From the NCBI RefSeq assembly GCF_025717555.1, contig NZ_JAJIRP010000001.1, positions 682,001-746,000 of the forward strand: 64,000 nt of DNA, read 5' to 3'. Position 1 is the first letter of the stretch. Each line of letters begins with the position of its first letter. The position numbers and the translations under genes were made by a program. The notes under the pieces were generated by a model. The model had not been told where the DNA came from and did not search any database. It saw only the letters and a program-made list of their open reading frames with translations. Positions 42,473 to 63,469 of the stretch are shown piece by piece. This stretch comes from Paucibacter sp. B2R-40. GTDB lineage: Bacteria > Pseudomonadota > Gammaproteobacteria > Burkholderiales > Burkholderiaceae_C.

Positions 42473-42993
42473 GGGCACCACCCGAGATATTCAGGACCGA
42501 TAAGAATAGCTACAGGGCCGCTTTTTATAAGGTCGCGAGCGACGAGCCGATCCTCCGGTGCCACCAGCATATTTGTAACTACGCCCCACATTGCGAGAAT
42601 AGAAGCCGTCACCGAGCCCATTGAAGCGTTCTCAGGTGTTGTATCATTCCCGGTCCCTCTAAGACTGATTATGAGAATAATGGGGATTTCATAAGGGCAT
42701 ACCAGCGACGCCATGACGTTTACGCAGTTTCCGAACCCCGAATTTTGCATAAGCACTGCGGGATAACCGCCCGCAAGCGCTTGCCCGGCAGCGTATCCCA
42801 GCGCGGTGTCCTCGCGGGAAATTGTCACCAGTGGCACGTCGTCGTCGCCGTGTGTTCTACGCCATAGCGGTGCCAGGATTCCGCACGGTGTCCCAACTTG
42901 CGAGGTTATTCCGGCTTCTTTCAGCACCCTGCGTACGTGCAAGGCTCGCTCAGTGCAACTCGGCAGATCGATGTCCGAACTAGTAGTAGTCAT
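42469..42993 (-). CDS. ThDP-dependent 2-oxoacid decarboxylase, alpha subunit
   Basis: 174 aa, the pyrimidine-binding half partnering 41852-42472. The catalytic Glu is in ISREDTALGYAAGQALAGG; the family segment VLMQNSGFGNCVN follows. The start at 42993 (MTTTSSDID) lies 11 bases after the upstream gene. No PEP mutase gene is present to make phosphonopyruvate, so another 2-oxo acid is possible. Confidence 0.85.
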   Translation of the reverse strand: MTTTSSDIDLPSCTERALHVRRVLKEAGITSQVGTPCGILAPLWRRTHGDDDVPLVTISREDTALGYAAGQALAGGYPAVLMQNSGFGNCVNVMASLVCPYEIPIILIISLRGTGNDTTPENASMGSVTASILAMWGVVTNMLVAPEDRLVARDLIKSGPVAILIGPEYLGWCP

Positions 42994-43004
42994 AGGATTT
43001 CCAT

Positions 43005-44330: not shown

Positions 44331-44428
44331 ATCGAGGCTCTTAGGTTGGCGAGGGCCAAGGCGATTGCGTGTCGGCCGTGACGATGGCGGGATAAATTTG
44401 TCTCAAATTTCACTTGAATAGGCAATTG

Positions 44429-45613: not shown

Positions 45614-46635
45614 AGCGATCGTCCGATAAAATTCACCCAGGAATTCAGATCATTGATGCTCAGACGAAGACTTGGCGGCGCCAAGTTCGCCATTGCATTG
45701 CGAGCCTCGGGCGTCAGCTCCACGGCGTCATCGCGAATAATCCACCCTTCGCTGAGGCACTCTTGCCTATGCCGAGCGCGCACCCGGTTTAAATCCGTAT
45801 CAGATAGTTCGATCCGGGGTTTTGATTTCCTACTCAGACCCAGCGTAACTGGTACAGCTCCAGTTTCGGCTCCAAACCCAGGCACACAGGCAGTTACACG
45901 CGGTAAGGTAGTTAACCTCGCCACCAGCGCCGCAGCGGCGGTAGCCCCGAGGTCATTGCGCTCTGCCCTGGAAAGACCACGACGTCGCTTTAGTGCTTCG
46001 ATGTGCAGATTCTCGGCTTCATGAACGCGGACGTTAGTTGCGTCGTACATCAGTGGCTCGTTCACAAATTCAGTTCCCAAATGGGAATGGTGTGCCAAAG
46101 CATGTAAACCGTCGGCTTCGCCGAAGTTTTGCTCCCAATTTAGTGTTTGGGCATTTCCAAGACCTACATCAAATGGGGTGCCGAGCAACCTTGCTATTGG
46201 ATTGACTAGTTCCGGGTAGCAGGCGTTGAGTAACAACGCACTGATGCCACTGGCATGCGCTGCCTTAGAGGCATTAAGCGCGATTGGAAGTTGTAAAGGC
46301 AGCGTTGCGCCAAAGGGTGTTCCAGTCTCGGCCCTCGAGCGATACGGAGAATAGCTCGACACAGCAACAACGACTATATCTGGCATCCAGAACCTGAATA
46401 ATGCAATCAGATTTTCCATTCCCTCGTCCCCGATTAACGTTCGGACAGGTGCCAAGTGAATGCGATGTGACGGGAGTGGCGATTCAGGCGGGGCGGGTAC
46501 GTTATTTTCACGGTAGCATTGGACGATTTGCACCCGATCTTCAAGCATTTCTAGTAGATGCGAGAGCATTGTTCGCGCAAACCGTCCGCGTCCTAAGATG
46601 ACCACCATCCGGTTAGCAGACTTATCGGCTACCAC
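45610..46635 (-). CDS. NAD(P)-dependent malate/lactate dehydrogenase-like protein
   Basis: 341 aa with an N-terminal Rossmann segment MVVILGRGRFARTML and MPDIVVVAVSSYS. Mid-chain LLNACYPELVNPIAR and VGLGNAQTL, and the late GAVPVTLGLS followed by an LSDTDLNRVRAR helix, follow the malate/lactate dehydrogenase layout. A GTG at 46635 has an AAGGGA site; ATG 46608 is an alternative. It overlaps the oxygenase gene by 14 bases. Probably reduces or oxidises a pathway keto or hydroxy acid. Confidence 0.6.
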   Translation of the reverse strand: MVADKSANRMVVILGRGRFARTMLSHLLEMLEDRVQIVQCYRENNVPAPPESPLPSHRIHLAPVRTLIGDEGMENLIALFRFWMPDIVVVAVSSYSPYRSRAETGTPFGATLPLQLPIALNASKAAHASGISALLLNACYPELVNPIARLLGTPFDVGLGNAQTLNWEQNFGEADGLHALAHHSHLGTEFVNEPLMYDATNVRVHEAENLHIEALKRRRGLSRAERNDLGATAAAALVARLTTLPRVTACVPGFGAETGAVPVTLGLSRKSKPRIELSDTDLNRVRARHRQECLSEGWIIRDDAVELTPEARNAMANLAPPSLRLSINDLNSWVNFIGRSL

Positions 46636-47395
46636 TGGGTGTTTCCCTTAGCCCGCCGGCTGCACTAATCTGCAGGCGTCGCAAATGCCTTCGACTATCC
46701 TTGAATGCGTTGCGTGCGTGCAGTAAATGCCAGTTGTCCCACAGCAAAATATCATTTTGCGCGTAACGAATACCCACTGCGTCTACAGCGAAGCGCGACT
46801 GCCAGTTCTTTTGCAATGCGACAACGACAGTATCATCGTTGTGCAATAGATTGTTGCAAGAAAATCGAACGATACGACCTAAACCGTGATCTTCGAGAAT
46901 TGGATGCTCGGTACGCAGGTCAAGCCCTTGGCGCCGGACGCCATCGGTAGTCTTCCATGAATACGTAGTTTTGAAGAGGTACTCACGTGTCTCCTCATCC
47001 AAAGCTTCAATCCATGGTTCAGTGGTCGCAATCGTGGTTTCTCCGCCTTCACCCGCTGCGGGTACCACACACCAAAGCATGATGTATCGCGGAGGGAGTT
47101 TTTTGAAGTCATAGCCCTCAGTGTGGGGAGTGAGGGGTTGATGGTTACCTGCGTGGTAGACATCGTCCATGCCCGGCTCAGGACGCACGTTCCCAACTAC
47201 TGCGCCGCCGTAGTTAGGAACAAAATTTCCAAATTCACGACCAAAGCGGATATAATCAAATCCAGTGGGGACATTAATGATTTGTACGTATCCATGTTCC
47301 TTAAGCAATGCCTGAGCGGTGTTATAAAGGTTTTCTGCAGTGAGGGGTTCATCGTCGAAATCCACCGCGGAAAGTATGCTGATCGGCGAATTCAT
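46622..47395 (-). CDS. TauD-like Fe(II)/2-oxoglutarate oxygenase
   Basis: 257 aa. The metal triad is visible as H-x-E in LTPHTEGYD and the distal His in LLHARNAF; the Arg-rich DSRRHLRRLQIS that follows supplies the 2-oxoglutarate contact. It belongs to the TauD/clavaminate synthase group, which hydroxylates, desaturates or epoxidises small amino-acid-like substrates. Coupled to the upstream gene by an ATGA overlap. Confidence 0.88.
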   Translation of the reverse strand: MNSPISILSAVDFDDEPLTAENLYNTAQALLKEHGYVQIINVPTGFDYIRFGREFGNFVPNYGGAVVGNVRPEPGMDDVYHAGNHQPLTPHTEGYDFKKLPPRYIMLWCVVPAAGEGGETTIATTEPWIEALDEETREYLFKTTYSWKTTDGVRRQGLDLRTEHPILEDHGLGRIVRFSCNNLLHNDDTVVVALQKNWQSRFAVDAVGIRYAQNDILLWDNWHLLHARNAFKDSRRHLRRLQISAAGGLRETPSGSR

Positions 47396-48738
47396 TGGAA
47401 TGTTCTCCCACGGGCACGCTCAATGAGGTCATCGAGTTCTTGGACCTGGTCTTGGTGCAAACGAGTGAGGTGTTTCTGGGGCACCGGGCTAAAATCGGCA
47501 TCGGCGTAGTTTCCACTGTTGTGAATAACTACCGATCCGACGCCCTCTAACAGTCCTCGAGCATGGGCAAGCCGAGTTCCGGTGGCAGCCATTAGCAACG
47601 AATGTTCCCGTAAGTGGCTCAAGTCGGCGGGCAGTCGGACGTCAGTTGAAGCGAGTCCGGTGCGTATTTCGTCATACATTCGCTCGCACTCGGCGCGGCT
47701 TACGACGATTCCAGTTCCGCCGTTATGAGCGATGTAGCCTTCCATCTCCTGCTGAGTAATAGGCGCGGACGTGTAGAACGTGGTGTCGATGCATTCGTCA
47801 GGGCGACTTGTTACAGCGGGAAAGTGTGGTGAGGCCGTTTGGCGAAATTGCCCATCGGCACTGCGTTGGTATTTTGGCAACCTCGCCCGGTCGAAACTGC
47901 CCGAGGTCAAATGTAGAACCATGTCTGGGGTGTCGAGCTGCTGGACAAGCAGGTAGCCCGGCCGAATCGGTGCGTTGGGCCAACGCCGGGCCCAGCCCCG
48001 GCTGTGTCCGATTAGCCCGAAAGCGCTGGAGACACTATGAGCGTGCCACCTATGGGCTTCCGGTGGAAACCGGTCAATCTCAATGAAAGCACGCAATTGA
48101 TCGGCGAGTACGTAATTGTCCAGAGCGAGAGTGAACCAAAGTCGTCGCTTTGACTTTGCAGGAGAAAGTCGATGTGCAGCGCTGGATACCAACTTCTTAA
48201 CCATATCGCGTGTCGAAGTCTCGACGGTCACAAGTGGGTTGAAAGCCCGCAGTAGGTCGTCGGAGGAGAGTGGGCCGTCCCACAACTTGGATTCAGCGGC
48301 GACTGGAACTACACAAACTATGTTCAGCGTGTCTGGAGTCGCCAGTGAGAACTCGTAAGCGCGATACACGGCCGCGCGCAATGCGGTTGCCTTGTTGCCT
48401 GACGATGCCGTGACGATGGTTATTGCCTCCCCAGTCCGGCGAGTGTGTTCGATCGCGCGGGCGACCATGAGGAGAGAAGGATTTGTTTTGGTCGTGCGGG
48501 TTCTTTCGAACCTGGACATATTTATCAGTATAGTTTCGATATCTAAACCGATGTTAATACTTGAGTAACTTATTGAAGACGCGGAAAAGTAACCTCTCAG
48601 TTGCTCGTCCAACTCGGGGAGGAAATTCGGGCTAAAAATAACATCTTGATTTTTATCTTTACTACCGACGTTTTCGTGCAACTGGGTGCAAATCGCATCA
48701 TAGTAATCCGATATTGGGTTATCAATAACTGTTGTCAT
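47392..48738 (-). CDS. Threonine-synthase/cysteine-synthase-like fold protein, first gene of the operon
   Basis: 448 aa. The start at 48738 (MTTVIDNPIS) has AAGGA eight bases upstream; the longer frame does not. RTTKTNPSLLMVARA and TIVTASSGNKATALRAAVY resemble the NPTGSFKDR and SSGN loops of fold-type II PLP enzymes. The usual Schiff-base Lys of the first loop is not in place, so it may be inactive, use another Lys or not bind PLP. Likely DUF6002-like. Function open. Confidence 0.6.
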   Translation of the reverse strand: MTTVIDNPISDYYDAICTQLHENVGSKDKNQDVIFSPNFLPELDEQLRGYFSASSISYSSINIGLDIETILINMSRFERTRTTKTNPSLLMVARAIEHTRRTGEAITIVTASSGNKATALRAAVYRAYEFSLATPDTLNIVCVVPVAAESKLWDGPLSSDDLLRAFNPLVTVETSTRDMVKKLVSSAAHRLSPAKSKRRLWFTLALDNYVLADQLRAFIEIDRFPPEAHRWHAHSVSSAFGLIGHSRGWARRWPNAPIRPGYLLVQQLDTPDMVLHLTSGSFDRARLPKYQRSADGQFRQTASPHFPAVTSRPDECIDTTFYTSAPITQQEMEGYIAHNGGTGIVVSRAECERMYDEIRTGLASTDVRLPADLSHLREHSLLMAATGTRLAHARGLLEGVGSVVIHNSGNYADADFSPVPQKHLTRLHQDQVQELDDLIERARGRTFQ

Positions 48739-49082
48739 AGTTTGCTTCCTTGGCATTAAGCGTGCCAAGGCTAAAGCGATTGTTTTCGCCTAGCACCATA
48801 GCCGCGAGATTATCGAACCAACGTGGACCGCTAGGGGTGAGAGAAATTTGAAATTAACATCTTGATTTCAATTTCACTTCGGAATCAATCCATTCAACGT
48901 CAATAGTGACACGGCCGCCAAAAAGCGTTGTCGGACAGAACCGGGCTTGCACATTCGTCTAGCGGAGTGATCGCTGTAGGATTTTTCCTACTGGATGATG
49001 CAGCGTCCATTTGCAGGCGAAGAAACCCCTTAGTCAGTTTTGCGCCGTTGCGAACCTCGGATTAGCGTAGTAGCGCGTTGAC
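48739..49082. promoter_or_regulatory. Likely promoter region of the leftward biosynthetic operon
   Basis: About 340 bases without a gene. It contains an imperfect inverted repeat (48842-48853 with 48864-48874, AT-rich, arms matching except one base) about 105 bases upstream of the first start, a plausible operator. No -35/-10 pair could be assigned with confidence. Confidence 0.4.
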
Positions 49083-49402
49083 CTGTATGGACAAGACATC
49101 AGACGCCTGCAGCTCGAGAAGGACCTGCTGAAGAAAGCGAACGAACTGCTAAAAAATGAACTAGGCATCGACCGGCGGCACCTGACGAATCGGGAGAAGG
49201 TGCAGCTGGTTGATGCCCTGAGACTGACCTGCATGCTTACAGATCTGCTCTGCGAAGTGGAACTGGCACGCCGCTCCTACTTCTACCATCGGGCCCGCCT
49301 GGGGGTAGTCGACAAGTACGCCGACGTACGCCAGACCATGACAGACATCTTCGAGCGCAACTATCGCTGCGACGGATATCGGCGGATCCACGCCTGCCTG
49401 AG
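49083..49402 (+). pseudogene. IS3-family transposase fragment
   Basis: One open frame with a leucine-rich OrfA-type tail (LQLEKDLLKKANELLKNELG) followed by OrfB-type helix-turn-helix sequence (REKVQLVDALR, SYFYHRARLG, YRCDGYRRIHACL). It stops being transposase-like at about 49402, where an inverted recombinase fragment begins. The DDE core is absent. Confidence 0.8.
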
Positions 49403-49924
49403 CGCCGATGGGGACGCTGAGCCGCAGTTCGCCGCGATGGGCCTTGGCACGGGCGGCCTCAAACATCCTTGTGCGCAGGACACCGAGCTCGAATTCGCTG
49501 ATGCTGCCCTTCATCCCCAGCAGCAGCCGGTCATTGGGGCGACAGGGATCGTAGACACCTTCGAGGTCAATGACACGGGCTTCTACAAGTCCACACAGCT
49601 CCAGCAGGTGGTGCCAGTCACGGCCGTTGCGCGCCAGGCGTGAGGCATCGAAGCACAGCACCGTGCCGACATCGCCAGCGCAGAGCCAGGCGACCAGCCG
49701 GTCAAAGCCAGGCCGCGCGACGGTCCCGCTGGCGGATCGCCCGAGGTCATCGTCAATGACTTCGATCTGTGTAAATCCGCGTCGGCGCGCCTCATCCACG
49801 AGGTCGTACTGCCTCCGCTTGCTCTCAAGGTTGGTCTGGACTTGCGACTGTGTGGACTGGCGCACGTACACCACGGCCCTTGCGGCGCAGTACCGCGTCG
49901 GGAAGCTGTTCAGTGTTGGCCATC
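49403..49924 (-). pseudogene. Serine recombinase fragment, frameshifted and truncated
   Basis: Resolvase-type catalytic domain: VVYVRQSTQSQVQTN with the nucleophile Ser, the DDDLGRSASG block, RLARNGRDWH and GMKGSISEFELG. A natural start at 49924 (MANTEQLPDAVLRRK) is one base out of frame with the rest; an extra G in the run at 49877-49879 explains it. The C-terminal part is lost at the IS3 junction. Confidence 0.8.
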
Positions 49925-51020: not shown

Positions 51021-51066
51021 AGTTAGCACTAACGTAACTAGTTAGCACTAACGTAACTAGTTAGCA
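51021..51066 (+). repeat. 19-bp tandem repeat, about 2.4 copies
   Basis: Two identical 19-bp units (AGTTAGCACTAACGTAACT at 51021-51039 and 51040-51058) and the first 8 bases of a third. Each unit contains the dyad GTTAG...CTAAC. May be a regulator-binding array or decayed element end. Confidence 0.85.
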
Positions 51067-51404: not shown

Positions 51405-51563
51405 ATGCAAAACGAAACGCAAGTCACGCAAGTCGAACAAGACCAAGAAATCGCCGACGTGCTCGGCATCACCGTACTCTCGCCTCTGGAAGAGTCAGCA
51501 GTTTCCGGCGGCGAGGTGCACATCCACCAAGGCAGCCAGCACGTGGACGTTAAGGCGTTCTGA
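51405..51563 (+). CDS. Putative RiPP/bacteriocin precursor with double-glycine leader
   Basis: 52 residues. The leader has the ITVLSPLEESAVSGG pattern typical of substrates of C39-peptidase exporters (hydrophobic positions and Glu before Gly-Gly). The predicted core after Gly-Gly is EVHIHQGSQHVDVKAF, 16 residues with three His, no Cys. Translation starts at 51405 after AAAGTGAGAA; an earlier in-frame start is weaker. Encoded just upstream of two oxygenases and the matching peptidase-exporter. Not a family I recognise. Confidence 0.75.
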   Translation: MQNETQVTQVEQDQEIADVLGITVLSPLEESAVSGGEVHIHQGSQHVDVKAF

Positions 51564-51616
51564 GCACGATCGGCGCGCCACCTACGCAGGGTGCACCCTG
51601 ACGGTGACCGAGTCAG

Positions 51617-51644
51617 GCCCGGCATCTTTTTCAAGATGCCGGGC
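51617..51644 (+). promoter_or_regulatory. Strong hairpin between precursor and first oxygenase gene
   Basis: A perfect 12-bp stem (51617-51628 with 51633-51644, loop TTTC) 54 bases after the precursor stop. No T run follows, so it is more likely a partial terminator or RNA-stabilising element, a common way to make precursor exceed modifying enzymes. Confidence 0.75.
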
Positions 51645-51678
51645 TACCCGAATATCCAAAACACAGCTAGGAAAAAGC

Positions 51679-52959
51679 GTGACCTACCAACTTGAGTCCT
51701 TCAGCGACGAGTGGTGGAGTGACTTCCTCCTCGAAACCAAGAACCTGAGCGCGCCAGCGGTGTTCGCGAAGGCCATCGAGCCAGATCGCATCGCCTTCTA
51801 CCAGCGGTCGGCATTGAACGTCGTCGCTACGCTATGTCGGCTTCGCACGGTGCAGTACGGCTTCCGCGCGTATGCTGACGGCCTCCTGCTCGATCGCGAT
51901 GGAATGGAGAGGGTCTACGACCAGCCGCCTTCGCCTGGCGAGAGTCTGGAGGCCTGGAGCCAGCGCACGTTCAAGGACAGAAAATTCGGCTTCATTATCA
52001 ATGCTGGCGAGAAGTTCGACGAGGCCTTCTCACAAGAAGTCGCACTTGCGATGGCCCCACTGCTGCGGCAAACTGGTATCCCGCGGGACGGAATACAGTT
52101 TACGCTTTTCATTGGCAACTACGACAAGACACCGCTTGGCATCCATCAGGATATCCGAGGGGAGAGCGTCACCCACTTCCACGTTGGCCCCGGCAGCAAG
52201 GTGATGTACGTTTGGGACAAGGAAGACTACCGCAAGTTGACCCACGAGGGTGGCCTGAAGCACCGTGACTTCAATGCGCTCAAGCCCTACGCGAGGCAAT
52301 TCAAAATCGAGGCTGGCGATCTGTTTTTCATGCCGGAAGGCACCTTCCACATTGGGGAGCAAGACAGCCTTTCGATCGGAATCACCGTCTGGCAATACAC
52401 CCACACCAACACGGACCTTGCCCGGGCGATGCTCAGACATGCGTGGACGCAGGTCCGCCCGATTGACGCAGACGCTATCGTCCACGACATCACGTCCCCG
52501 GACAACGGCGCCCACATCGACAACATCGTTCCCCCTCATACGGTGCCGCTTGAATATCGTCATCTCACCCTCGAGGGTCTGGTAAAAACGGCGTATGTGG
52601 ATTGGCGTCACATCCTATTTAGTAACGCCGGCTACCGTAATCCGCCGTTCGAACGCCAGCAACGCGAGGCATTTAGTCGTGACGACGAAGTGCAACTCGA
52701 TATGCCTTACAAGATACTCACACGCAGGATCGATGGTACCGGCAAGCTAATCGTATACGTCCGCGGACACCGGCTGGAAGTGAACGACCATCCTTGTTTG
52801 GTCGACCTCATTGAGCGCCTAAACGATGGTGAAGTTCATATCGTCGCAGACCTGCTGGCTCTACTCGACAAGGGTTGGAGCGACAAGGTAGGGCTGTACC
52901 TCCTTTCTGAGATTCACCTATACCGTGGTCTCGTCAAACGACAAGAGGCTGCAGCCTGA
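51679..52959 (+). CDS. Cupin/JmjC-type Fe(II)/2-oxoglutarate oxygenase 1
   Basis: 426 aa, GTG start at 51679 with an AGGA site; the longer frame runs through the precursor gene. The metal triad fits H156-x-D158 (LGIHQDIRG) with H224 (GTFHIGEQD) in a double-stranded beta-helix. Other segments: FTLFIGNYDKTPLG, VGPGSKVMYVWDKEDY and DLFFMPEG. The C-terminal 150 residues look like a separate winged-helix-type domain. Likely hydroxylates the precursor core. About 35-40% similar by eye to the next protein. Confidence 0.78.
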   Translation: MTYQLESFSDEWWSDFLLETKNLSAPAVFAKAIEPDRIAFYQRSALNVVATLCRLRTVQYGFRAYADGLLLDRDGMERVYDQPPSPGESLEAWSQRTFKDRKFGFIINAGEKFDEAFSQEVALAMAPLLRQTGIPRDGIQFTLFIGNYDKTPLGIHQDIRGESVTHFHVGPGSKVMYVWDKEDYRKLTHEGGLKHRDFNALKPYARQFKIEAGDLFFMPEGTFHIGEQDSLSIGITVWQYTHTNTDLARAMLRHAWTQVRPIDADAIVHDITSPDNGAHIDNIVPPHTVPLEYRHLTLEGLVKTAYVDWRHILFSNAGYRNPPFERQQREAFSRDDEVQLDMPYKILTRRIDGTGKLIVYVRGHRLEVNDHPCLVDLIERLNDGEVHIVADLLALLDKGWSDKVGLYLLSEIHLYRGLVKRQEAAA

Positions 52960-52995
52960 ACCTGCGTCTTGCGCGTCAATCCATCGGAGTAAAAC

Positions 52996-54351
52996 ATGAC
53001 GATCCACAATCAAGCCACAAGCCCCCTGGCGCTGTCGCGCCTTAAGCAACAGTTCGACGAGGCGTGGTGGGACGACTTCATGCGCAAGACGCACAACATG
53101 ACGGTGCCCGCCACAATCACCGACGGCCTCACGGCGGAACAGGCGCGACTCATGCGCCGGCTGGTGCTCGACATCCTAGCCGAGGTCTGCCAAGTGCATC
53201 GGCGGCGCTACGGCTATCGGCTGTGGATGGATGGCGAGCCGGTTGAGACCTTGGCCGAGCACTTCGCCCACCATCCGAAGCCGGGCGAGGACGTGCAGGC
53301 CTGGGTGCGACGCGCCTTCGGTGACCACAAGTTCGGGATCATTCTCAACCAGGGTGAGAAGTTCAGCGCCGAGCTCTCGCAAGCCGCCGCCATCATCCTC
53401 AAGCCCATCCTGGAGATGATCGGCATGCCCACCGAAGGCATCCTGTTCACGGTCTTCATCGGCAACTATGAAATGACGCCCCTAGGCATCCACAAGGACT
53501 TTGCCGGCAAGAGCGGGGTTCACTTCCACCTCGGCCCGGGGCCCAAGACCATGTACACCTGGGAAGATGAGGACTACAAGACGGCGCCCGTAGAGAGGCG
53601 GCAGAACAACATGAACGTGGCGGCACACCTGCCCACCGCGACGAAGCATACCTTTCACGAAGGCCAGTTCTACTTTATGCCGGAGAACAAATTCCACGTG
53701 GGCATGCAGGACGAGCTGTCCATTGGCATCGCGTGCTGGTTCAACAACCGCTGCGACTACGACTTTGTGGAGGAGTTGCTCAAGCATGTCATGACTGATC
53801 ACGTGCGACGTTCCGAGGGCATGCTCAAGGCGGACCGGAACCCGGTTGATGACACCACCACCGTGGATGCCGTCCTGTCACTGTTGACACTTGAGGACAA
53901 GGAAGACCTCGCGCTCAAGCCCTTGCTGCGCGGCATCTACCGTGACTTCCGCTATTGTCTGTTTAGCAACGCTGGTTTCCGCAACCGTCCTGTGCCCAAC
54001 CCAGTCGACATCGATATCGAACCGGGCGACGCCGTCCGCATCGACGAGCCCTACCGGCTGCTCTACCGTACGGGAGCGCAGCCCGGCCGGCACGATGTCT
54101 TCGTGCGCGGCACGCGGGTCTCGCTGCAGAACTTCGCAGGTCTGGATTGCGTCGTCGATCTCCTCAATAGCGGCACCATGGTTACTGTCGCCCAGTTGGC
54201 CGCGTTGCTGGACGACGCGCGGGCTGAGCGTAAGGTGTGCCACCTGCTCAAGGTGCTGCATAAGTACCGCGGCATCACGGTCGTCACAGAAAGCGTGCGC
54301 GATGCAGCAGTGGTGCCTGGCCGAGAGCGCGAACGCTCTGCGACGGTCTAA
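52996..54351 (+). CDS. Cupin/JmjC-type Fe(II)/2-oxoglutarate oxygenase 2
   Basis: 451 aa paralogue of the preceding protein. The same triad occurs at H166-x-D168 (LGIHKDFAG) and H234 (NKFHVGMQD), offset by exactly ten residues. Shared blocks include FTVFIGNYEMTPLG, LGPGPKTMYTWEDEDY, QFYFMPEN and the SNAGFRN segment in the C-terminal domain. GGAGT precedes the ATG. Acts presumably on the same peptide, at another position or in a complex. Confidence 0.78.
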   Translation: MTIHNQATSPLALSRLKQQFDEAWWDDFMRKTHNMTVPATITDGLTAEQARLMRRLVLDILAEVCQVHRRRYGYRLWMDGEPVETLAEHFAHHPKPGEDVQAWVRRAFGDHKFGIILNQGEKFSAELSQAAAIILKPILEMIGMPTEGILFTVFIGNYEMTPLGIHKDFAGKSGVHFHLGPGPKTMYTWEDEDYKTAPVERRQNNMNVAAHLPTATKHTFHEGQFYFMPENKFHVGMQDELSIGIACWFNNRCDYDFVEELLKHVMTDHVRRSEGMLKADRNPVDDTTTVDAVLSLLTLEDKEDLALKPLLRGIYRDFRYCLFSNAGFRNRPVPNPVDIDIEPGDAVRIDEPYRLLYRTGAQPGRHDVFVRGTRVSLQNFAGLDCVVDLLNSGTMVTVAQLAALLDDARAERKVCHLLKVLHKYRGITVVTESVRDAAVVPGRERERSATV

Positions 54352-54402
54352 GTACGACGATGCCGCCTCCCCTGTGTGTACCACCCTACTAGTCGCACCG
54401 TC

Positions 54403-55614
54403 ATGAGCGCGACACCGCTATTCCGCGCGCAGGCTCTGGCTTACGCGACAGTTCGCCAGTACGGCAGCATCGTGCTGCTTCGGCCCGTCGGCGTGTCGTG
54501 GCTCCTCGGCATGTTCTGCCTGATCGCGGCGGCTGTTCTATTTTTCTTCGCGACTGCGGACTACACGCGCAAGGAACAGGTAGGAGGCGTGCTCATGCCG
54601 ACACAGGGTCTGCTTCGAGTGCAGTCGCTGCAGCCGGGCCTAGTGCTGGATGTTCGCGTTCACGAGAACCAGTCCGTTCATACCGGTGACGTACTGTTCG
54701 TCATCAAGGGTGCCGGGGCCGACGTGGCACAGAGTGACCCGGACGGGCAGATCGTTGCCCTGCTGCACACGCTGCGTGACAAACTGTCGCAAAAGCAGCA
54801 CCGTCTGCGCGACGATGCTGGCAAGAGCGACGCGCTACGGCGCCAGGCGCTGGAGCTAGGCGAAGAGCTGGAGCGCGTCGACAAGCAGATCCTGACTCAG
54901 CGACGCCGGGTCGCGCTTTCCGATAGTGTCTTGACGCGCACCCGCCATACCGTTCACGGCTGCTTCACACAGTCGGGCGCTTACGACCTGAAGAACGGGA
55001 CGTCTGTACTTGCTCCGGCTGCCTTCAGGAGCGCGCCCGGTCGCGCGGGGCCACCGCCCCACGACTGCCGCGACGAGGCGAGCGCCCAGCGCCAAGTCGA
55101 CGCCATCGACCAAGGCCTCGCCGATACCGAAGCACCGAAGACAATGCTAGTGCGTGCGACGCAGGCTGGCGTGGTCAGCGGCGTCGCGACCCAGTCCGGC
55201 CAGACCGTGGCCGCCGGGCAGGTGCTAGCCAACCTATCGCCCGCGAGTTCCCCGCTGGAGGCTGTGCTCTACGCCTCAGCGCGCGCAGCCGGCATGGCCC
55301 AGCCGGGCATGCCGGTACAGATCCGCTACCAGGCATATCCGTTCCAGAAGTTCGGCCAGTTCCAGGGCATCATCAGCGAGGTCTCCCGCAGCCCCTTGGC
55401 CGACGCAACCGCACCCGCAGCCGAAGGAGCTAGGCGCTCCGGCGAAGCGCTCTATCGGATCCGCGTGGCGCTGGCCCGGCAGGACGTTCCCCTCGCCAGC
55501 ACAACCCGGCCGCTGATGGCGGGCATGGCGCTGGACGCCAACCTACTGATCGAGACCCGCAAACTATACGAATGGGTGCTGGAGCCCCTACAGGTCTTTG
55601 GTGCGAGGGGATGA
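54403..55614 (+). CDS. HlyD-family membrane fusion protein
   Basis: 403 aa periplasmic adaptor linking an inner-membrane peptide exporter to an outer-membrane channel. One N-terminal helix (LGMFCLIAAAVLFFFATA), a lipoyl/barrel part, an alpha-hairpin and a C-terminal barrel (IRYQAYPFQKFGQFQG, AGMALDANLLIETRKLYEWV) are visible. The hairpin segment about residues 185-225 is unusually Pro/Gly/Ala-rich and reads more naturally in another frame, so paired frameshifts are possible. ATG 54403 is preferred to GTG 54376. Confidence 0.87.
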   Translation: MSATPLFRAQALAYATVRQYGSIVLLRPVGVSWLLGMFCLIAAAVLFFFATADYTRKEQVGGVLMPTQGLLRVQSLQPGLVLDVRVHENQSVHTGDVLFVIKGAGADVAQSDPDGQIVALLHTLRDKLSQKQHRLRDDAGKSDALRRQALELGEELERVDKQILTQRRRVALSDSVLTRTRHTVHGCFTQSGAYDLKNGTSVLAPAAFRSAPGRAGPPPHDCRDEASAQRQVDAIDQGLADTEAPKTMLVRATQAGVVSGVATQSGQTVAAGQVLANLSPASSPLEAVLYASARAAGMAQPGMPVQIRYQAYPFQKFGQFQGIISEVSRSPLADATAPAAEGARRSGEALYRIRVALARQDVPLASTTRPLMAGMALDANLLIETRKLYEWVLEPLQVFGARG

Positions 55615-55615
55615 C

Positions 55616-57916
55616 ATGAATCTGCAACAGCCCCTCCTGCAGTTTTGGGTTCGTCGTCGGTTGCCCGTCCTGCTGCAGTCCGAGGCGGCCGAATGTGGCT
55701 TGGCTTGTCTGGTGATGATAGGCGAGTACTGGGGTCACCGCATCGACATGGCCAACATGCGCCGACGATTCTCGGTGTCCCTCAAAGGCACCACACTGAA
55801 AAGTCTGATCGCGATGGCGCAAGGCCTGGACTTGCAGCCGCGCTCGCTCAAGCTTGACATCCTACACATGACGCAACTGCAACTGCCCTGCGTGCTGCAC
55901 TGGGATATGAACCACTTTGTGGTGCTCAAGGATTTCTCTCACGGGTACGCCACACTCCACGACCCGGCAGTAGGCGAACGCCGTATGCCAATCGCCGCTG
56001 TCGCCAACCATTTCACCGGCGTGGCACTGGAGCTGACGCCCGGGCCGACGTTCCTCAAGCTAGAGGAACGCCAGCGCTTCAGCCTGCTGTCGCTAATGGG
56101 GCATGTGGACGGGCTCAAGCGCGGCATGGCGCAGTTGATGTTGCTTGGACTGGCGCTGCAGGTCTGCATGCTGGTGGCGCCGTTCTACCTGCAGTGGATG
56201 GTGGACGAGGCATTGGTCGGCGCCGACCGCGGCTTGGCGACCGTGCTTGGCATCGGCTTCCTGCTGCTGGTGCTGCTGCAAACCACCATCGGTGCCGTAC
56301 GTTCATGGGCCACGAGCGCACTGGCTACTGGCCTCAACTTCCAGTGGTTGGGCAATACCTTCGGGCATCTTATGCAATTGCCGCTGCCGTGGTTCGAGAA
56401 GCGGCACCTGGGCGACATCGTCTCTCGCTTCGGTTCGATTCAGACCATCCAGCGCAGTATGACCACGCAGTTCGTCGAGGGTATCATCGACGGCGTGCTG
56501 GTGATCGCCACCCTGGCAGTGATGTTGGCATATAGCAAGCCACTGGCTTGCGTAAGCCTGGCTGCGGTAACGCTGTATGCCCTGCTGCGCTGGACTATCT
56601 TCCGCGCCATGCGAGAGGCAACAGCCGAACAGATCATCCACGCGTCGCGCCAGCACACTTACTTCATCGAATCGGTGCGCGGCGTTCAGAGCGTGCGCCT
56701 GTTTGACCGTCAAGCCGAACGTCGCATTGGCTGGATGAATGCACTAGCCGAGCAGTTCAACGCCGACCTCCGCATTGCCCGGCTGACAATCTCATTCCAG
56801 ACTGCCAACGCGCTGCTCTTTAACGCGGAGCGGGTGATCGTCATCTGGCTCGGAGCGCTGGCAGTCATGGATCACACCTTCACAGTGGGAATGCTATTTG
56901 CCTTCCTCAGTTACAAGGAGCAGTTCAGCCTGCGCATTGCTTCGTTAATTGACCGCTCGTTCGAGCTGCGCATGCTCGGCCTACACGGCGAGCGCGTGGC
57001 CGATATCGTGCTATCCAAACCCGAGCAGGAGCACTGCGACATCGAGGTCGACCCAGCTGAGGTATCGGCCTCGATCGAGGTGCGTAACGTATCTTTCCGC
57101 TATGCCGACAGTGAGCCATATGTCCTTGAAGGCCTGAGCCTAGTGGTGCCGGCGGGGCAGTGCATTGCGATCGCGGGTGCCTCGGGCTGTGGCAAGACGA
57201 CATTGGTCAAGCTGATGTTAGGGCTGCTGGAGCCAACCGATGGCGAAATCCTCGTGGGCGGCCTGCCGCTCAGGCAGCTGGGCCTGGGCAACTACCGCAA
57301 GCTGATCGGCACCGTGATGCAGGACGATCAGCTATTTGCGGGCTCCATCGCCGACAACATCAGCTTCTTCGAGGCCCAGTCAAACCAAGCCCGCATCCGC
57401 GAGTGCGCGAACCTCGCGGCCATCCACGACGAGATCATGAGGATGCCCATGACCTACAACACACTTGTCGGCGACATCGGCCTGGGTCTGTCGGGCGGTC
57501 AGAAACAGCGCATTTTGCTCGCGCGCGCCCTGTACCGCGAACCTAAGCTGCTGCTGCTGGACGAGGCCACCAGCCACTTGGACGTTTGGAACGAGAGGGC
57601 CGTCAATACGGCAATTAAGGAGATCGCGATGACGCGCATCTTGGTCGCACATCGGCCGGAGACCATCGCTATGGCTGATCGCGTCGTCGTCATGAAGCGC
57701 GGGCAGATTGTCCAGGACGACGATTTGCGGGGCAAGAAAGTCACTGTGATGACGCCGCGCGAGGGAGGCGCGAGGGCTCCTTCCAATGTCGCTACGGAGG
57801 AAGACATAGAGACGGGCCCAACCCAAGTCGGGGATGGGGGAGACTCTCTTGAAGTAGGTCGACGGCCCCGTCCGGGCACGGTGATCGCGGCGTCGGTCCG
57901 TCGGCCATGCTCATGA
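55616..57916 (+). CDS. C39-peptidase ABC exporter (PCAT)
   Basis: 766 aa exporter that cuts double-glycine leaders and pumps the peptide out. The C39 domain has the nucleophile C27 (SEAAECGLACL), H100 (DMNHFVVLK) and D116 (LHDPA). Six-helix ABC membrane domain follows (about 160-450), then the ATPase with Walker A GASGCGKTT, signature LSGGQKQR and Walker B LLLLDEA. Two bases separate it from the HlyD gene. An extra low-complexity tail of about 60 residues follows the ATPase. Confidence 0.93.
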   Translation: MNLQQPLLQFWVRRRLPVLLQSEAAECGLACLVMIGEYWGHRIDMANMRRRFSVSLKGTTLKSLIAMAQGLDLQPRSLKLDILHMTQLQLPCVLHWDMNHFVVLKDFSHGYATLHDPAVGERRMPIAAVANHFTGVALELTPGPTFLKLEERQRFSLLSLMGHVDGLKRGMAQLMLLGLALQVCMLVAPFYLQWMVDEALVGADRGLATVLGIGFLLLVLLQTTIGAVRSWATSALATGLNFQWLGNTFGHLMQLPLPWFEKRHLGDIVSRFGSIQTIQRSMTTQFVEGIIDGVLVIATLAVMLAYSKPLACVSLAAVTLYALLRWTIFRAMREATAEQIIHASRQHTYFIESVRGVQSVRLFDRQAERRIGWMNALAEQFNADLRIARLTISFQTANALLFNAERVIVIWLGALAVMDHTFTVGMLFAFLSYKEQFSLRIASLIDRSFELRMLGLHGERVADIVLSKPEQEHCDIEVDPAEVSASIEVRNVSFRYADSEPYVLEGLSLVVPAGQCIAIAGASGCGKTTLVKLMLGLLEPTDGEILVGGLPLRQLGLGNYRKLIGTVMQDDQLFAGSIADNISFFEAQSNQARIRECANLAAIHDEIMRMPMTYNTLVGDIGLGLSGGQKQRILLARALYREPKLLLLDEATSHLDVWNERAVNTAIKEIAMTRILVAHRPETIAMADRVVVMKRGQIVQDDDLRGKKVTVMTPREGGARAPSNVATEEDIETGPTQVGDGGDSLEVGRRPRPGTVIAASVRRPCS

Positions 57917-58149
57917 CGCCCCTTGTGGCTGCCGTAGAGCTGCGTTGTCACCCCGCCCGTGATCGATCAAGTGCGCCGACGCCTCGCCTAGCTATCACTG
58001 AGGTCACGCGTGGCTCTGGCGAGGGGCAGAGAAGGATTGCGCGCACTTGCTTCGAAATACGTTGTGGTCTCCAACAAGCGCCGCTACGGCGACGGGCGAC
58101 GACTACGCTTCAACGGCTGATCCATTCCATTTCCAATGAGGAACTGACT

Positions 58150-58827
58150 ATGCTCAAACTATGCCAACTCAGTAAACTGCACCGCAGCGACGAGGTCGAG
58201 ACCACCGCGCTCGACAAGATCGACCTTGACATCGAGGCCGGCGAGTACTTTGCTGTTACTGGCCCGTCAGGCTGCGGGAAGTCAACGCTGCTCGGCATCC
58301 TCGGCCTGCTGGACGCGCCCAGCAGCGGCGAATACTGGTTTGACGGCGAGAACGTCACCGGCTGGAGTGAGGCAAGGCTAACGCGCCTACGACGTGGCCG
58401 CATCGGCTTTGTGTTTCAGAGTTTCAACCTGATCGACGACCTGAGCGTGGCCGAGAACATCGAGCTGGCTCTGGAATACGGCGACATACCCGCACGCGAG
58501 CACCGCCGGCATGTAGTCGAGGCAATGGACCGCCTCGGCCTCACCCACCGCGCGCGGCACCGGCCCTCGCAGCTCTCTGGCGGCCAGCAGCAGCGCGTGG
58601 CCATCGCGCGCGCGATCGTTTCGCGCCCGGCGCTGCTGCTTGCCGACGAGCCGACCGGCAACCTCGATACGGCCCACGGCGACGAAGTGATGCGCATCCT
58701 GCGCGACCTCAACGCTGAAGGCACGACACTGGTGATGGTCACACACTCGCCCGCGCACGCGGCGATGGCCCATCGCGCACTGCAGTTGCTCGACGGGCGC
58801 GTGCTCGTCGAACCACTGGCCGTCTGA
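58150..58827 (+). CDS. LolD/MacB-type ABC ATPase
   Basis: 225 aa, start at ATG 58150 after GAGGAA. Walker A GPSGCGKST, Q-loop VFQSFNLIDD, signature LSGGQQQR and Walker B LLADEPTGNLD are complete. Works with the FtsX-like permease 13 bases downstream. Such pairs often protect producers from their own peptide. Confidence 0.93.
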   Translation: MLKLCQLSKLHRSDEVETTALDKIDLDIEAGEYFAVTGPSGCGKSTLLGILGLLDAPSSGEYWFDGENVTGWSEARLTRLRRGRIGFVFQSFNLIDDLSVAENIELALEYGDIPAREHRRHVVEAMDRLGLTHRARHRPSQLSGGQQQRVAIARAIVSRPALLLADEPTGNLDTAHGDEVMRILRDLNAEGTTLVMVTHSPAHAAMAHRALQLLDGRVLVEPLAV

Positions 58828-58840
58828 TGGGAAACCAATC

Positions 58841-61279
58841 ATGCTGAAGGACTTACGCGTCGGCTGGCGCCAACTTATCGCAGACCCCGGTTATGCCGCG
58901 GTCATCCTGCTGGGTTTGTCAGTGGCCATCGCCTGCTGCTACCTCGTAGCCCAGATCGTTTTCAACCAAGTGAGGCCCGATCCGGACATCCCCGAGCCAT
59001 CGAAAGTGGTCATCCTCGAATTTCGTGGCAACAGGCCGGGCGCGCAGGACGACTGGGGGGATCGCGCGCCTTTCATCTTCGGGACGACTTTGCGCCAGGC
59101 CGGCGCCCCGGTGAGCGCAATCACACGCCTGATAGACGGGACGTCCAACGCGCGCGTGGAAGGACGCTCGGTTCCTCTGGACATCATGTTCGCAGACCTC
59201 GACGCGATCGCCGTCTTCGGCCTGCGGGCGAGCGCCGGAGACCTGAGCGAGGCCCTGCGCAGGCCCGACGCCCTTGCCCTGACCGAGGCGGCGGCGAACC
59301 GGTTGTTCCCCGCTGGCGACGCGCTCGGCAAGGCTGTGAATGTGCGCGGCCACTTGCTGACAATCGTCGCTCTGATGGCCCACAGCCCACGCACGGTAAT
59401 GGATCGGCCCGGTGAGGCTTGGGCGAACTTTGACTCGCCGGCGACTGCGGCCGATCCGAGGTTACTCGATGCCTGGAACGCGATGCAGGGCAAGGTCGTC
59501 GCGCGCGTCGCGAACGGCCACGCTCCCGCCGAAGTCGGTGCGGCGGCCCAGGCCTTGTTCGACAACGGTCCCGGTGCCAGCGGCACGCCTGCGGATTGGA
59601 CAGCCAACGGCCGAAAGGGCGCCTTCTTGCGCGCCATGCCCCTCACGCGCCAGTACCTTGAAGGCGGCGGCGGGCAGGCTCACCTCACGCTGGTGATGGG
59701 CCTAGGCGCAAGCGCTGCTCTCGTGCTCGGCCTGGCCGCAGCCAACTACGTCAACCTCACCAGCGTGCGGACGCTCGCCCGGGTGCGCGAGATCGCCGTG
59801 CGCAAGTCGCTAGGGGCCAGCCCTTGGCGTCTGACGGCGCAGTTCGTATTCGAGTCAACCCTCGCCGCCCTGCTGGCGAGTGCTGTGGGGCTACTGCTGG
59901 CCTGGTGGTTCGCGCCCGCGTTGGGCGAGCTGCTGAACTTAGAGCTGGCGGATGGATTGTTCTCGCCGGGCCGTATAGCCTTGCTGGTCGCGGCAGCCGT
60001 CGCGCTAGGCGTAGCCACCGGGCTTTACCCCGCGCGCATCGCCTTGGTCGTCCATTGCGTGGAGGCGCTGGCCGGGCGGCCGCATGACGAAGGCGCCGTC
60101 GGTCGCAACCTGCGGCGCGTGATGACGACGCTGCAGTTCGTGGTCACCGTCGTAATCGGTACCGGTGCCTGCGTGGTGCTGTGGCAGAACCGCCACGTGG
60201 CAACGCTGGCGCACGGCATTCGCACAGAGGGCCTGTTGACGATCGACATGCCCGACGGCTTCTCCGGCAAGTCGGACGCCGTCAACGCCGCCTTCCGCAA
60301 CGCGCTGTCCCACGAGCCAGGTGTCGATGGTCTAGCCTGGAGCTTCGATGTCCCCGGGCGCGACTCGGCGGTCATGACCGAGACGCTCGCGCAAGGCCGC
60401 TCCGCACCGCTGGTCGAGGTCAACCTGATGCGCGTGGACAAAGATTTCTTCGACGTCTACGCTATCCCTATGGTCGCGGGTCGGGCGCCCGTCGTCGCCT
60501 CGGCAGCGTCAGTGCCGAATCGGGCCGGCGAGCTCAAAGCCGAACAGGCAGTGGTGTTGGACGCGCAAGCCAGCCGTGCACTGGGTTTCGCGAGCCCACT
60601 GGCGGCCGTGGGTGAATTGGTGTTGGGAGGTGGCGATTTCATGACGCTGGGCAAAGATCCCCTTCGCATCGTGGCAGTCGCTGCGGACATCAGGCTGGAG
60701 AACGCTCGTGCGGCGAGCCGACCGCACGTTTTCCTGCTCGGCGACCAACCGCAGCCGACGCTTACGTTGCACGGCACTAGCCTGGTTGCGCTTCAGCAGG
60801 CAATCGCGCGGGTCTGGCCACACTATTTCCCCGACAATTCGGCCAAGCCGGTGACAGTGAAACAGGCATTCGACCAGCCGTACGACTTCGAGCGCCGTGT
60901 CGCACAAATGGCCGCGGGCGTTAGTCTGCTGGCGCTATTGCTGTCGGCTTTCGGTGTCTACGCGCTCGCGGCCTACACGGTGCGACGCCGCACGCGCGAG
61001 ATTGTCGTGCGCAAGCTCTACGGTGCTGGACCGGCGCGAATTGCCGGCCTGCTGGCGCGCGAGTTCGTGCCCTTGCTGACGGCCTCAGCACTGATCGGCC
61101 TACCGCTGGGCGGCTGGCTCGCTCAGAGCTGGCTCGCGAACTTCACCGAACGATCCCCCACTGCGTTCTGGGCGCTGCCGTTAGTAATGGTGGGGCTGGT
61201 GGTTATGACCGCGCTGTCGGCGCTTAGGCATGCGATCGTGGCGATGAAAATACGTCCAGCTCTAGTATTGCGAGAATGA
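58841..61279 (+). CDS. FtsX-like ABC permease (MacB/YknZ type)
   Basis: 812 aa with a tandem arrangement: two FtsX modules and two periplasmic MacB-like domains. Helical clusters lie at the N-terminus, about 285-420 and the C-terminus; the coupling sequences REIAVRKSLGAS and REIVVRKLYGAG are characteristic. Long MacB-type permeases of this length act in type VII ABC mechanotransmission. It ends the RiPP operon. Confidence 0.92.
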   Translation: MLKDLRVGWRQLIADPGYAAVILLGLSVAIACCYLVAQIVFNQVRPDPDIPEPSKVVILEFRGNRPGAQDDWGDRAPFIFGTTLRQAGAPVSAITRLIDGTSNARVEGRSVPLDIMFADLDAIAVFGLRASAGDLSEALRRPDALALTEAAANRLFPAGDALGKAVNVRGHLLTIVALMAHSPRTVMDRPGEAWANFDSPATAADPRLLDAWNAMQGKVVARVANGHAPAEVGAAAQALFDNGPGASGTPADWTANGRKGAFLRAMPLTRQYLEGGGGQAHLTLVMGLGASAALVLGLAAANYVNLTSVRTLARVREIAVRKSLGASPWRLTAQFVFESTLAALLASAVGLLLAWWFAPALGELLNLELADGLFSPGRIALLVAAAVALGVATGLYPARIALVVHCVEALAGRPHDEGAVGRNLRRVMTTLQFVVTVVIGTGACVVLWQNRHVATLAHGIRTEGLLTIDMPDGFSGKSDAVNAAFRNALSHEPGVDGLAWSFDVPGRDSAVMTETLAQGRSAPLVEVNLMRVDKDFFDVYAIPMVAGRAPVVASAASVPNRAGELKAEQAVVLDAQASRALGFASPLAAVGELVLGGGDFMTLGKDPLRIVAVAADIRLENARAASRPHVFLLGDQPQPTLTLHGTSLVALQQAIARVWPHYFPDNSAKPVTVKQAFDQPYDFERRVAQMAAGVSLLALLLSAFGVYALAAYTVRRRTREIVVRKLYGAGPARIAGLLAREFVPLLTASALIGLPLGGWLAQSWLANFTERSPTAFWALPLVMVGLVVMTALSALRHAIVAMKIRPALVLRE

Positions 61280-61768
61280 GGATTAGCGAGAGCGGGCCAA
61301 AGTGGGGCGAACCTTGATGCTGAAGCGCTGGGCGGACGGAGTTTCTCAGTCGCCCAACACTGAGTTGGGAGTCGTCGAACGAGAGTTGACGACTAGTACC
61401 TTGGGCCTCACCTTGTCAGAAGGCTAAGCGTTTCTGGCCAGCGCGCAGCAGTTCCTTGTAGGTGGCGACGTCGTGCACCGCTTGCGACAACTAGCTCTGC
61501 GCGTCCCGCTAGACATCCAACCGAAGGTGCCAGAGTTCTATCTTTCCTGGACCTTTCTGGCTCGTCGAATGTGCATACATTAAATTGCGGCAGTGTATTG
61601 AAGTGCCGATAGCACCAGACCATGGCTCTGAAGAGCCGTATGTGAGCAGTACGCGTACGGTTCTGTAAGCGGAGCCCGCAGTGATTGAGGTTCATAGTCG
61701 ATTCTGGTCGTACCAAAATTCGGTCCATGCGTTTGTGCTCGCCGACAGAGGCGCGCGGGAGGACATCG
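61280..61768. other. Intergenic region with possible group II intron remnant
   Basis: 489 bases without a credible gene. The sequence at 61633-61663 has GAGCCGTA pairing with TACGGTTC around an irregular stem, followed by TGTAAGCGGAG. This resembles the element next to the reverse-transcriptase gene in bacterial group II introns. No reverse transcriptase is present, so it would be a scrap. Confidence 0.35.
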
Positions 61769-63469
61769 ATGCAAAACGAGATCGTGCCGGCAGCGTTGCG
61801 GCGGTTCGGCGACGTGCCATTGCGCATCGATTGGTACGGTGACATCGTCCAGCGGCTGAACTACGGCGTCACAACTCCATACGTGCAGCTGTCGTGCACC
61901 CGATACCCTGGCCAGTGGAGGGGCAGTCAAACGCCAGAAGCTCCAGTTTTGACTGGGTTGCCGGTGGCGTTGCTGCGTGCTGTCCGGTTGGGAGACATCT
62001 GGCAGCGTGGCCGAAGGGTGGGCGGTATCCCCCTCGCAAGGGTGTCCTTCGAAAGGGTGGTCATCGACGACGAGTCGGCGACCATCGGTCCGGCAGGTTT
62101 GCCAACGCTTGGGCCGGACAACATATCCCGCTACGAGTTGCCGTTCGCTCAGTTTGCCGGACATAGAGATCACACCTTGTCCTGTTTGGTCAAGGTGGAC
62201 CTTGGCAACGGATGCGTGTTGCTCGTGCCCTCAATGGAGATAGTTCGGTTCTACTTCGGCGCGTGCGGCTCGTTGCTCGCCAATATGTTCGGTGGAGCGT
62301 TGGCGGGTGAGAACCTGTACTCATACGCCCGAAAGGACAAAAGCACCGGGGTAGCGAACCTCACGCTCGATGCAACCCTGCCGGGTGTTGCGGCGGCGAC
62401 GGTGGCACGAATCGCCTTTGACAAGGCCGCTGCACGGCAGTTTCGAGGGATTGTCAACACAGGCATCAAGGCGGCTGCAAACCGCCAGAAGTGGTACCCC
62501 AGGGTAGGGTTTCCTCTGGCGGGGATGACCACGATCACCGCCGATGGGGTGTGGCTCGAACGGCAGACAGATCGGGCGTTCGTGGTCCACCGGCTAGTTT
62601 CCTGTAGTCATCCCTTTCCGTTCACGAAGCTCTACTACCGAAGTGAGTTCTCAGCGACAAAACTCGGCCGTCCACCAGGGATCGTCAGGGCGCAGCTAGG
62701 TGCACCGGATGCAAGTCTGAAGGTTCACATTGGCGAGGCGGTTGGCACTGCAAGAGGGCTGGCTCCGGTTGCAGTGCCCTCGCAAGAAGCTGAAGACCCC
62801 TTCCCGGATTTGTTGGCAAAGCAGATTCACAAAGTGAAAGATGACTTCCGGTCCGGATTCGCCCGCAGCAAGAAGGCCACGGCAGGAGAGGAAGGCTTCA
62901 AACTGGGCATCGGCGGGCACTCGGACGGGGGCGTCCGCCAGGGAGATGTCCTGGGTGCAAGCCCCACTGAAGCAGAGCCATTTGTCCCGCCCATACCGAT
63001 GCAGGAACTTCTCAGGTGCACGGTCAAGTGGGGGGACAAGTCGATTCTGAGCTTCAGGGCTCCCTTCGGCGGAGGGCGGGTGGCACGAGTCGACGTGCGA
63101 TTGGACGATGGTCGCGATGTCGCGTACTGGGTGTCGCGGCTGGTCTTCCTGAATGTTGACGTGCTTGCCTTAGCCATCCTGGTTATCGTGGCAGAGCCGG
63201 GCGCGGCAAGGGACCAAACGGAAATGCTGTTGTACGACGTCACTTTGCTTGGAGAAATCACAGCGCGCATGTGCGACGAGTTTGCGAGCGTATTTTGGGC
63301 AGACGACGCTACGCGCGAGCGGATCGAGGCTGAAGGCTTGCTGATCCGCGGGTTGTCGAGCGAACAACTCAATCAGGAGGGAGGCGGCTTAGCGCTGACT
63401 ATTGCTTTCGACTGGCTCGCTTGCAAATACGAAACCCTCCCGGTTAATGAGCGGCAAGATCCGCACTGA
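61769..63469 (+). CDS. Large hypothetical protein, possible distant TnsE-like factor
   Basis: 566 aa, ATG 61769 with GGGAGGA upstream. No enzyme motif seen. The region VLLVPSMEIVRFYFGACGSL and the beta-rich KWYPRVGFPLAG to RAFVVHRLVSCSHPFP recall the layout of TnsE of Tn7 (a PxLE-x-R helix, then a strand-rich middle). It lies in the cargo of a Tn7-like element, which supports but does not prove this. A central stretch of about 80 residues is low complexity. Confidence 0.55.
   Translation: MQNEIVPAALRRFGDVPLRIDWYGDIVQRLNYGVTTPYVQLSCTRYPGQWRGSQTPEAPVLTGLPVALLRAVRLGDIWQRGRRVGGIPLARVSFERVVIDDESATIGPAGLPTLGPDNISRYELPFAQFAGHRDHTLSCLVKVDLGNGCVLLVPSMEIVRFYFGACGSLLANMFGGALAGENLYSYARKDKSTGVANLTLDATLPGVAAATVARIAFDKAAARQFRGIVNTGIKAAANRQKWYPRVGFPLAGMTTITADGVWLERQTDRAFVVHRLVSCSHPFPFTKLYYRSEFSATKLGRPPGIVRAQLGAPDASLKVHIGEAVGTARGLAPVAVPSQEAEDPFPDLLAKQIHKVKDDFRSGFARSKKATAGEEGFKLGIGGHSDGGVRQGDVLGASPTEAEPFVPPIPMQELLRCTVKWGDKSILSFRAPFGGGRVARVDVRLDDGRDVAYWVSRLVFLNVDVLALAILVIVAEPGAARDQTEMLLYDVTLLGEITARMCDEFASVFWADDATRERIEAEGLLIRGLSSEQLNQEGGGLALTIAFDWLACKYETLPVNERQDPH

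Follow-up and report, generated by a model that had tools for sequence, protein, structure and literature searches.

A double-glycine peptide operon with two JmjC-like oxygenases as putative maturases in Paucibacter sp. B2R-40

What does a bacterium make from a small peptide gene that is followed directly by two oxygenase genes and a peptide exporter, when none of the familiar peptide-modifying enzymes is among the encoded proteins? The question is raised by an operon of Paucibacter sp. B2R-40, located at positions 51,405 to 61,279 of the 64,000-nucleotide stretch of contig NZ_JAJIRP010000001.1 that we analysed (the window, to which all coordinates refer). We consider it likely that the operon makes a ribosomally synthesized and posttranslationally modified peptide (RiPP), oxidised by leader-guided oxygenases and exported by a C39 transporter. 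The initial annotation, drawn from the sequence alone, had proposed a RiPP operon whose double-glycine leader is cut by the C39 exporter; this is well supported, and its coordinates and reading frames hold. All seven operon genes, the precursor included, lie on the plus strand in the order given here:

51405..51563, plus strand: precursor peptide, 52 aa, with leader at residues 1-36 and putative core at residues 37-52 (EVHIHQGSQHVDVKAF); translation, leader homologous to a Bergeyella open reading frame (ORF)
51679..52959, plus strand: oxygenase 1, 426 aa, GTG start, JmjC/ribosomal-oxygenase-like, putative Fe(II)/2-oxoglutarate enzyme; alignment, structure prediction and fold search
52996..54351, plus strand: oxygenase 2, 451 aa, paralogue of oxygenase 1; alignment, fold by homology
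54403..55614, plus strand: HlyD-type membrane-fusion protein, 403 aa; Pfam/NCBIfam
55616..57916, plus strand: C39-peptidase ABC exporter, 766 aa; Pfam Peptidase_C39 (2.3e-29), ABC_membrane and ABC_tran
58150..58827, plus strand: LolD/MacB/DarD-like ABC ATPase, 225 aa counted from the ATG chosen; Pfam, NCBIfam DarD (243.5 bits)
58841..61279, plus strand: FtsX/MacB-type duplicated permease (ADOP-like), 812 aa; Pfam FtsX (7.5e-26) and MacB_PCD (4.4e-13), NCBIfam ADOP

The domain searches agree with the export genes as first described. The spacing, reported as tight, is so for five gaps (115, 36, 51, 1 and, last, 13 nt) and not for the 233 nt ahead of the ATPase gene, whose frame has an alternative start two codons further upstream.

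The 36-residue leader of the precursor contains the stretch LGITVLSPLE and ends in ...LSPLEESAVSGG, with Gly-Gly directly before the 16-residue tail. A strict double-glycine-leader pattern matched 3 of the 595 window ORFs of 30-140 aa, exceeding the chance expectation (0.77 on average over 200 residue shuffles). Besides the precursor, these are an ORF within the exporter gene (55645) and one at 22539, and only the precursor precedes an exporter operon. With E values up to 1 allowed, the peptide hit no family in NCBIfam or Pfam; tblastn found nothing in plasmids, and in 18 genomes of the genus the self match (E 9.7e-29) was followed by a best E of 0.14 in the 17 others and of 0.88 for a second match within its own genome. 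The locus has the make-up of a RiPP operon, a small gene with leader and core beside maturation and export genes, and also that of C39 double-glycine export, with the C39 domain on an ABC exporter, an HlyD partner and a Gly-Gly leader. The genome encodes another C39 exporter, which has 54% identity to the one in the operon.

The two oxygenases are clear paralogues, as first proposed, and agree at 148 of 419 aligned positions (35% identity, E 2e-96). Their label of cupin/JmjC proteins had been a guess by eye: oxygenase 1 matches Pfam JmjC_2 below threshold (E 0.0076, 16.2 bits against a cut-off of 22) and for oxygenase 2 neither Pfam nor NCBIfam gives a match up to E 1, so that neither belongs to the ribosomal oxygenase (ROX/RIOX) family by sequence. 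The JmjC part of the label stood in the fold search, from which the assignment of oxygenase 1 comes rather than from Pfam. Its predicted model resembles NO66/RIOX1, MINA53/RIOX2 and YcfD/RoxA over nearly the whole chain, with JmjC barrel, linker and C-terminal winged helix, at 11-16% identity in the structural alignments and a root-mean-square deviation of 6-8.6 over the chain, so the placing of the domains differs or is poorly predicted. The putative metal triad is H156-x-D158...H224, with K174 in addition. By alignment, oxygenase 2 has the same HxD...H and Lys pattern and the same C-terminal domain, and by homology it probably shares the fold. Besides sequence identity, the pair differs from ribosomal oxygenases in its place within a peptide operon and in the presence of a separate true ROX elsewhere in the genome (a 435-aa frame, JmjC_2 2e-39).

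From about residue 335, the model of oxygenase 1 ends in a winged helix of three strands and then three helices, the topology of a RiPP recognition element (RRE), and structural matches of this predicted domain include solved RREs with middling Z. In the available parts of a study that mined RREs by structure (PMC12710340), JmjC-RRE fusions are described with the same order of strands and helices, and bacterial homologues occur in RiPP-like contexts. No precursor or product is named for those fusions in these parts, whereas the operon comes with a precursor and a C39 export route, and its leader has a homologue in a second phylum.

That leader, and the nearest kin of the oxygenases, are found on a plasmid of Bergeyella porcorum (Bacteroidota). 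The Bergeyella oxygenase fragments share 45-51% and 27-28% identity with the window pair, and the plasmid also holds C39 exporter fragments (Peptidase_C39 2e-9). About 0.4 kb upstream of the oxygenase lies an ORF beginning MEKKSFNPAEFLGVQVLSPLEKRMIKGG, which scored 56 against the window leader, far above the 18 of the other 181 small ORFs there (blastp E 2e-6); the two leaders are homologous, and we found no other clear relative of the leader. Its tail is Gln-rich, so the two loci share a leader but differ in core, a pattern known from RiPP families. A reading of two Bergeyella fragments as a remnant of a SPASM radical-SAM protein was reduced to an impression by eye, with no match at E 0.01 in Pfam (first fragment) or NCBIfam (both).

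Together, these observations suggest how the peptide might be made. The leader, with its LGITVLSPLE stretch, would be bound by the RRE-like winged helix of both oxygenases, and the JmjC domains would then hydroxylate residues of the core using Fe(II), 2-oxoglutarate and O2, each paralogue probably at different sites. Our leading guess for the chemistry is beta-hydroxylation of His, or of Asp or Val. The C39 exporter would cleave after Gly-Gly and secrete the product together with HlyD, and the MacB/Lol-like ATPase/permease pair would clear the product or protect the producer. That the oxygenases act on the precursor, by hydroxylation or desaturation of its core, had been conjectured in the initial annotation; their action on it, though still putative, is strengthened by the RRE-like domain, the Bergeyella leader and the RiPP-like contexts of several distant relatives.

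One could instead suppose that the peptide is an unmodified double-glycine bacteriocin or signal and that the co-transcribed oxygenases act elsewhere, for example on a ribosomal protein. True ribosomal oxygenases do have the same fold, C39 exporters of the genus often have a double-glycine ORF beside them (10 of 20 fetched exporter loci), and no modification enzyme was seen by eye in the five such loci for which larger ORFs were listed. The genome, however, already has its true ROX, the oxygenase pair sits directly between the precursor and exporter genes, the Bergeyella oxygenase likewise follows a homologous double-glycine leader, and several relatives of the oxygenases lie in RiPP-like clusters. 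We regard this explanation as very unlikely.

The presence of two diverged paralogues in series suggests either a separate kind of site for each or two steps in succession. If the latter, the same RiPP operon would run an oxidation cascade in which one enzyme hydroxylates and the other oxidises further, by desaturation, ring closure or side-chain cleavage. By its description in the accessible text of PMC13097080, the graspetide-cluster pair SmaO (Asp beta-hydroxylation) and SmaX (onward to aminomalonate) is a parallel, but the HxD...H and Lys pattern is identical in both window paralogues, and a cascade seems to us unlikely. The core itself raises another thought, that of a secreted metal-binding peptide whose affinity hydroxylation could tune. 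After the Gly-Gly cut it would begin Glu-Val-His, which we take to be an ATCUN-type Cu/Ni site, and it has two more His, together with Asp and Glu. Yet chance could well place a His at position 3 when three of 16 residues are His, the Bergeyella tail is Gln-rich and no metal-uptake receptor was recognised among the seven operon proteins; we would be surprised if metal binding were the function.

The neighbourhoods of more distant oxygenase relatives are varied. Two genomes, G433 and G864 (L012 8526-15757 and L077 3187-10536), carry a JmjC oxygenase pair, fused in one and tandem in the other, with ABC transporter, Cupin_8, arginase and 2OG-FeII_Oxy_3 proteins as neighbours. The pairs stand behind ORFs of 53 and 64 aa ending ...RPVRHIRAQ and ...RPIRHIRVIS (conserved tail RP[VI]RHIR), and the loci look like a second family, an arginase-type RiPP cluster. 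These two ORFs also contain the leader motif LG[LIV]x[VI][LV], a regular expression for which matched four ORFs in 18 sources, each the candidate precursor ORF; the motif is a lead only because it was chosen after the sequences had been viewed and was unconfirmed by a score test. In a tree with long branches, which omits Bergeyella on account of its broken gene, the two window oxygenases grouped most closely with one another (99/98). The first members of the G433 and G864 pairs fell, along with G936, into the same unresolved 8-row group, and the second members fell in another group. Origin of these pairs and the window pair in one duplication is unsupported by the tree, as the members do not pair; the pairs seem to have arisen separately or diverged beyond recovery. 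Elsewhere, a lasso-cyclase-like protein and a PqqD protein accompany the relative in G256, both below the NCBIfam lasso cut-offs, and L015 has an ATP-grasp-maturase-like protein (below cut-off) and PmbA on the opposite strand. In G936 (L078 8498-12665) a YcaO protein adjoins one that joins TfuA-like and HExxH-type peptide beta-hydroxylase parts, beside the JmjC relative, and a Pantoea relative has an arginase and cupins nearby. No RiPP-like context was seen at G129 among ORFs of at least 200 aa, and none was recognised at L080 and L086.

JmjC relatives on Streptomyces and Nostoc plasmids (L079, L081, L082, L085, L010 and L084) lie near the repeat peptides KLGMRPG, LKAGMRPD, GLKTGVRPD and ALKVGVRPD. 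Annotated neighbours at the four Streptomyces loci include a tRNA-ligase-related protein, an amidinotransferase and DUF3865, with an arginine deiminase at three of the four, and a lysyl-tRNA-synthetase-like protein is annotated near the Nostoc commune locus; possibly this is another peptide-based pathway.

Several observations weigh against leader-guided modification by these enzymes. The C-terminal domain is no proof of leader binding because ordinary ribosomal oxygenases also carry a winged helix, and non-RRE winged helices match it too (GdmN 6.2, an RNA polymerase III subunit 6.0). Foldseek gave this domain nothing at E 0.001 or better (best 3.8e-3, ThcOx), and the PqqD profile matched none of six C-terminal domains at E up to 10, a search in which HMMER filters drop most matches above 0.1. 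The model of oxygenase 1 has weak stretches, with residues 242-290 below 50 in predicted local distance difference test (pLDDT) score, and a profile comparison with the genome's own ROX gave 76% probability. In Bergeyella the oxygenase is split over several frames, an annotated hypothetical ORF separates it from the leader ORF, and the core is not conserved; no close relative of the operon was found in which a substitution pattern of the precursor frame and core could show. Oxygenase pairs without an upstream Gly-Gly ORF, which the initial annotation had named as evidence against itself, were found in part: the G433 and G864 ORFs lack the Gly-Gly motif. With the window leader alone as query neither ORF scored in the top five, with the window and Bergeyella leaders one tied for first (three ORFs) and the other for fourth, and in the reverse direction neither the window nor the Bergeyella leader reached the top five. 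The weight of these two loci is lessened, as the tree does not join their pairs to the window pair, their exporters have no C39 domain by Pfam and the clusters are still RiPP-like.

A Pfam search at E up to 1 found no LanM/LanBC, YcaO, radical SAM or ATP-grasp maturase in the seven operon proteins, as first noted, with the remaining window searched in part; the operon does not qualify as a lanthipeptide, YcaO, sactipeptide or graspetide cluster. The further claim, of a chemistry unlike that of most named RiPP classes, is fair with one correction, as JmjC hydroxylases are already RiPP tailoring enzymes. According to the available parts of PMC12707348 and PMC12257519, BipG, BpmG and PbsQ are JmjC/cupin hydroxylases acting on ornithine in biphenomycin-type RiPPs. 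The likeness, by description in the case of BipG, is a JmjC-type hydroxylase acting on a RiPP precursor, whereas those clusters carry MNIO, arginase and B12 radical SAM proteins, domains absent from the seven operon proteins; here the JmjC-like proteins are the only maturation enzymes recognised. The operon shares the C39-ABC, HlyD and double-glycine leader with NHLP-type and other C39 bacteriocin exporters, and the best NCBIfam model for its exporter is NHLM_micro_ABC1 at 471.9 bits, below the cut-off of 853.3. The ATPase and permease score 243.5 and 70.3 bits with darobactin DarD and DarB, below cut-offs of 375 and 700, and the permease does better with the ADOP model (247.5 bits), still below its cut-off of 622.3; unlike darobactin, the operon has no radical SAM enzyme.

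The literature searched contained no double-glycine RiPP cluster with JmjC-RRE oxygenases as only recognised maturases, and a text search of it found no paper on hydroxyhistidine in RiPPs. A bolder proposal, tentative and somewhat doubtful, is that the operon represents a RiPP class in which two ROX-type JmjC enzymes with built-in RREs are the sole maturases and hydroxylate histidines of a secreted His-rich peptide, the ROX winged helix and the RRE being one peptide-holding module for ribosomal proteins and natural-product precursors. If right, one 52-aa peptide and two enzymes would form a minimal testable system of ROX-fold hydroxylases on a leader-guided peptide, which could show whether winged helix and RRE function as the same peptide holder and could offer programmable hydroxylases for His or other residues. 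JmjC plus C-terminal RRE would then be a search handle for RiPP clusters that standard profiles miss, as the lack of any model for oxygenase 2 shows they can.

Relatives of the oxygenases are rare. They were found in the own genome only in the family sample (1/399), in 4/399 genomes of the order sample and in 4/398 of the phylum sample, own included, two of the last being weak (G690, E 2.6e-10; G752, E 1.6e-14). Single-sequence queries gave 3/369 in the class and 2/99 among near relatives, again with the own genome, and a genome-contig search with the two-sequence alignment, whose patterns were poor, gave one relative; viral sequences gave none, and 11 of the 31 plasmid records were viewed. 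An exporter 47-54% identical and reaching into the C39 region is present in 16 of the 18 genomes of the genus, the own genome being represented by its second copy, so that the exporter type is at home in the genus and the oxygenases are not. This, together with resolvase debris upstream, suggests that the operon was acquired by transfer. The debris is a serine-recombinase N-terminal domain on the minus strand (49161-49874, Resolvase 3.5e-22) between the operon and an upstream cluster.

The ten exporter loci with small ORFs have a character of their own. The ORFs (52-73 aa, Gly-Gly or Gly-Ala leader) close with a hexapeptide of the type SPKGGW, TPRGGW or APKNTW, which eight of the ten contain twice, and some start with MQNE or MQNQ, as does the window precursor. 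One is in the own genome (L044, about 9865, minus strand), adjoining a LuxR-type regulator with an autoinducer-binding domain, and the others are in the genus (L045, L046, L048-L053 and L055); they look like a genus-wide peptide signal or bacteriocin.

Two repeats near the precursor may bear on its expression:

51021..51058, no strand: perfect direct repeat of 19 bp in two copies, AGTTAGCACTAACGTAACT, with part of a third copy after them; repeat search
51617..51644, plus strand: inverted repeat with perfect 12-bp arms and a loop of 4 nt, separating the precursor gene from that of oxygenase 1; repeat search

The direct repeats, about 350 nt 5' of the precursor and each containing the short inverted repeat GTTAG-CA-CTAAC, are a possible operator with a putative tie to the operon. 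The 127 nt at 51564-51690 fold better than every one of 200 shuffles (z = -4.33). As no T-run follows the inverted repeat, it may be an attenuator that tempers transcription or a stabiliser of the precursor mRNA. Downstream of the operon, a 594-aa ORF at 61685-63469 had no Pfam match at E 0.001. Just upstream, 40594-48768 encodes on the minus strand a DUF6002 protein, an MFS transporter and an oxygenase of the TauD type and looks like a separate small-molecule cluster; GC content is lowered to 0.49-0.55 at 46-49 kb.

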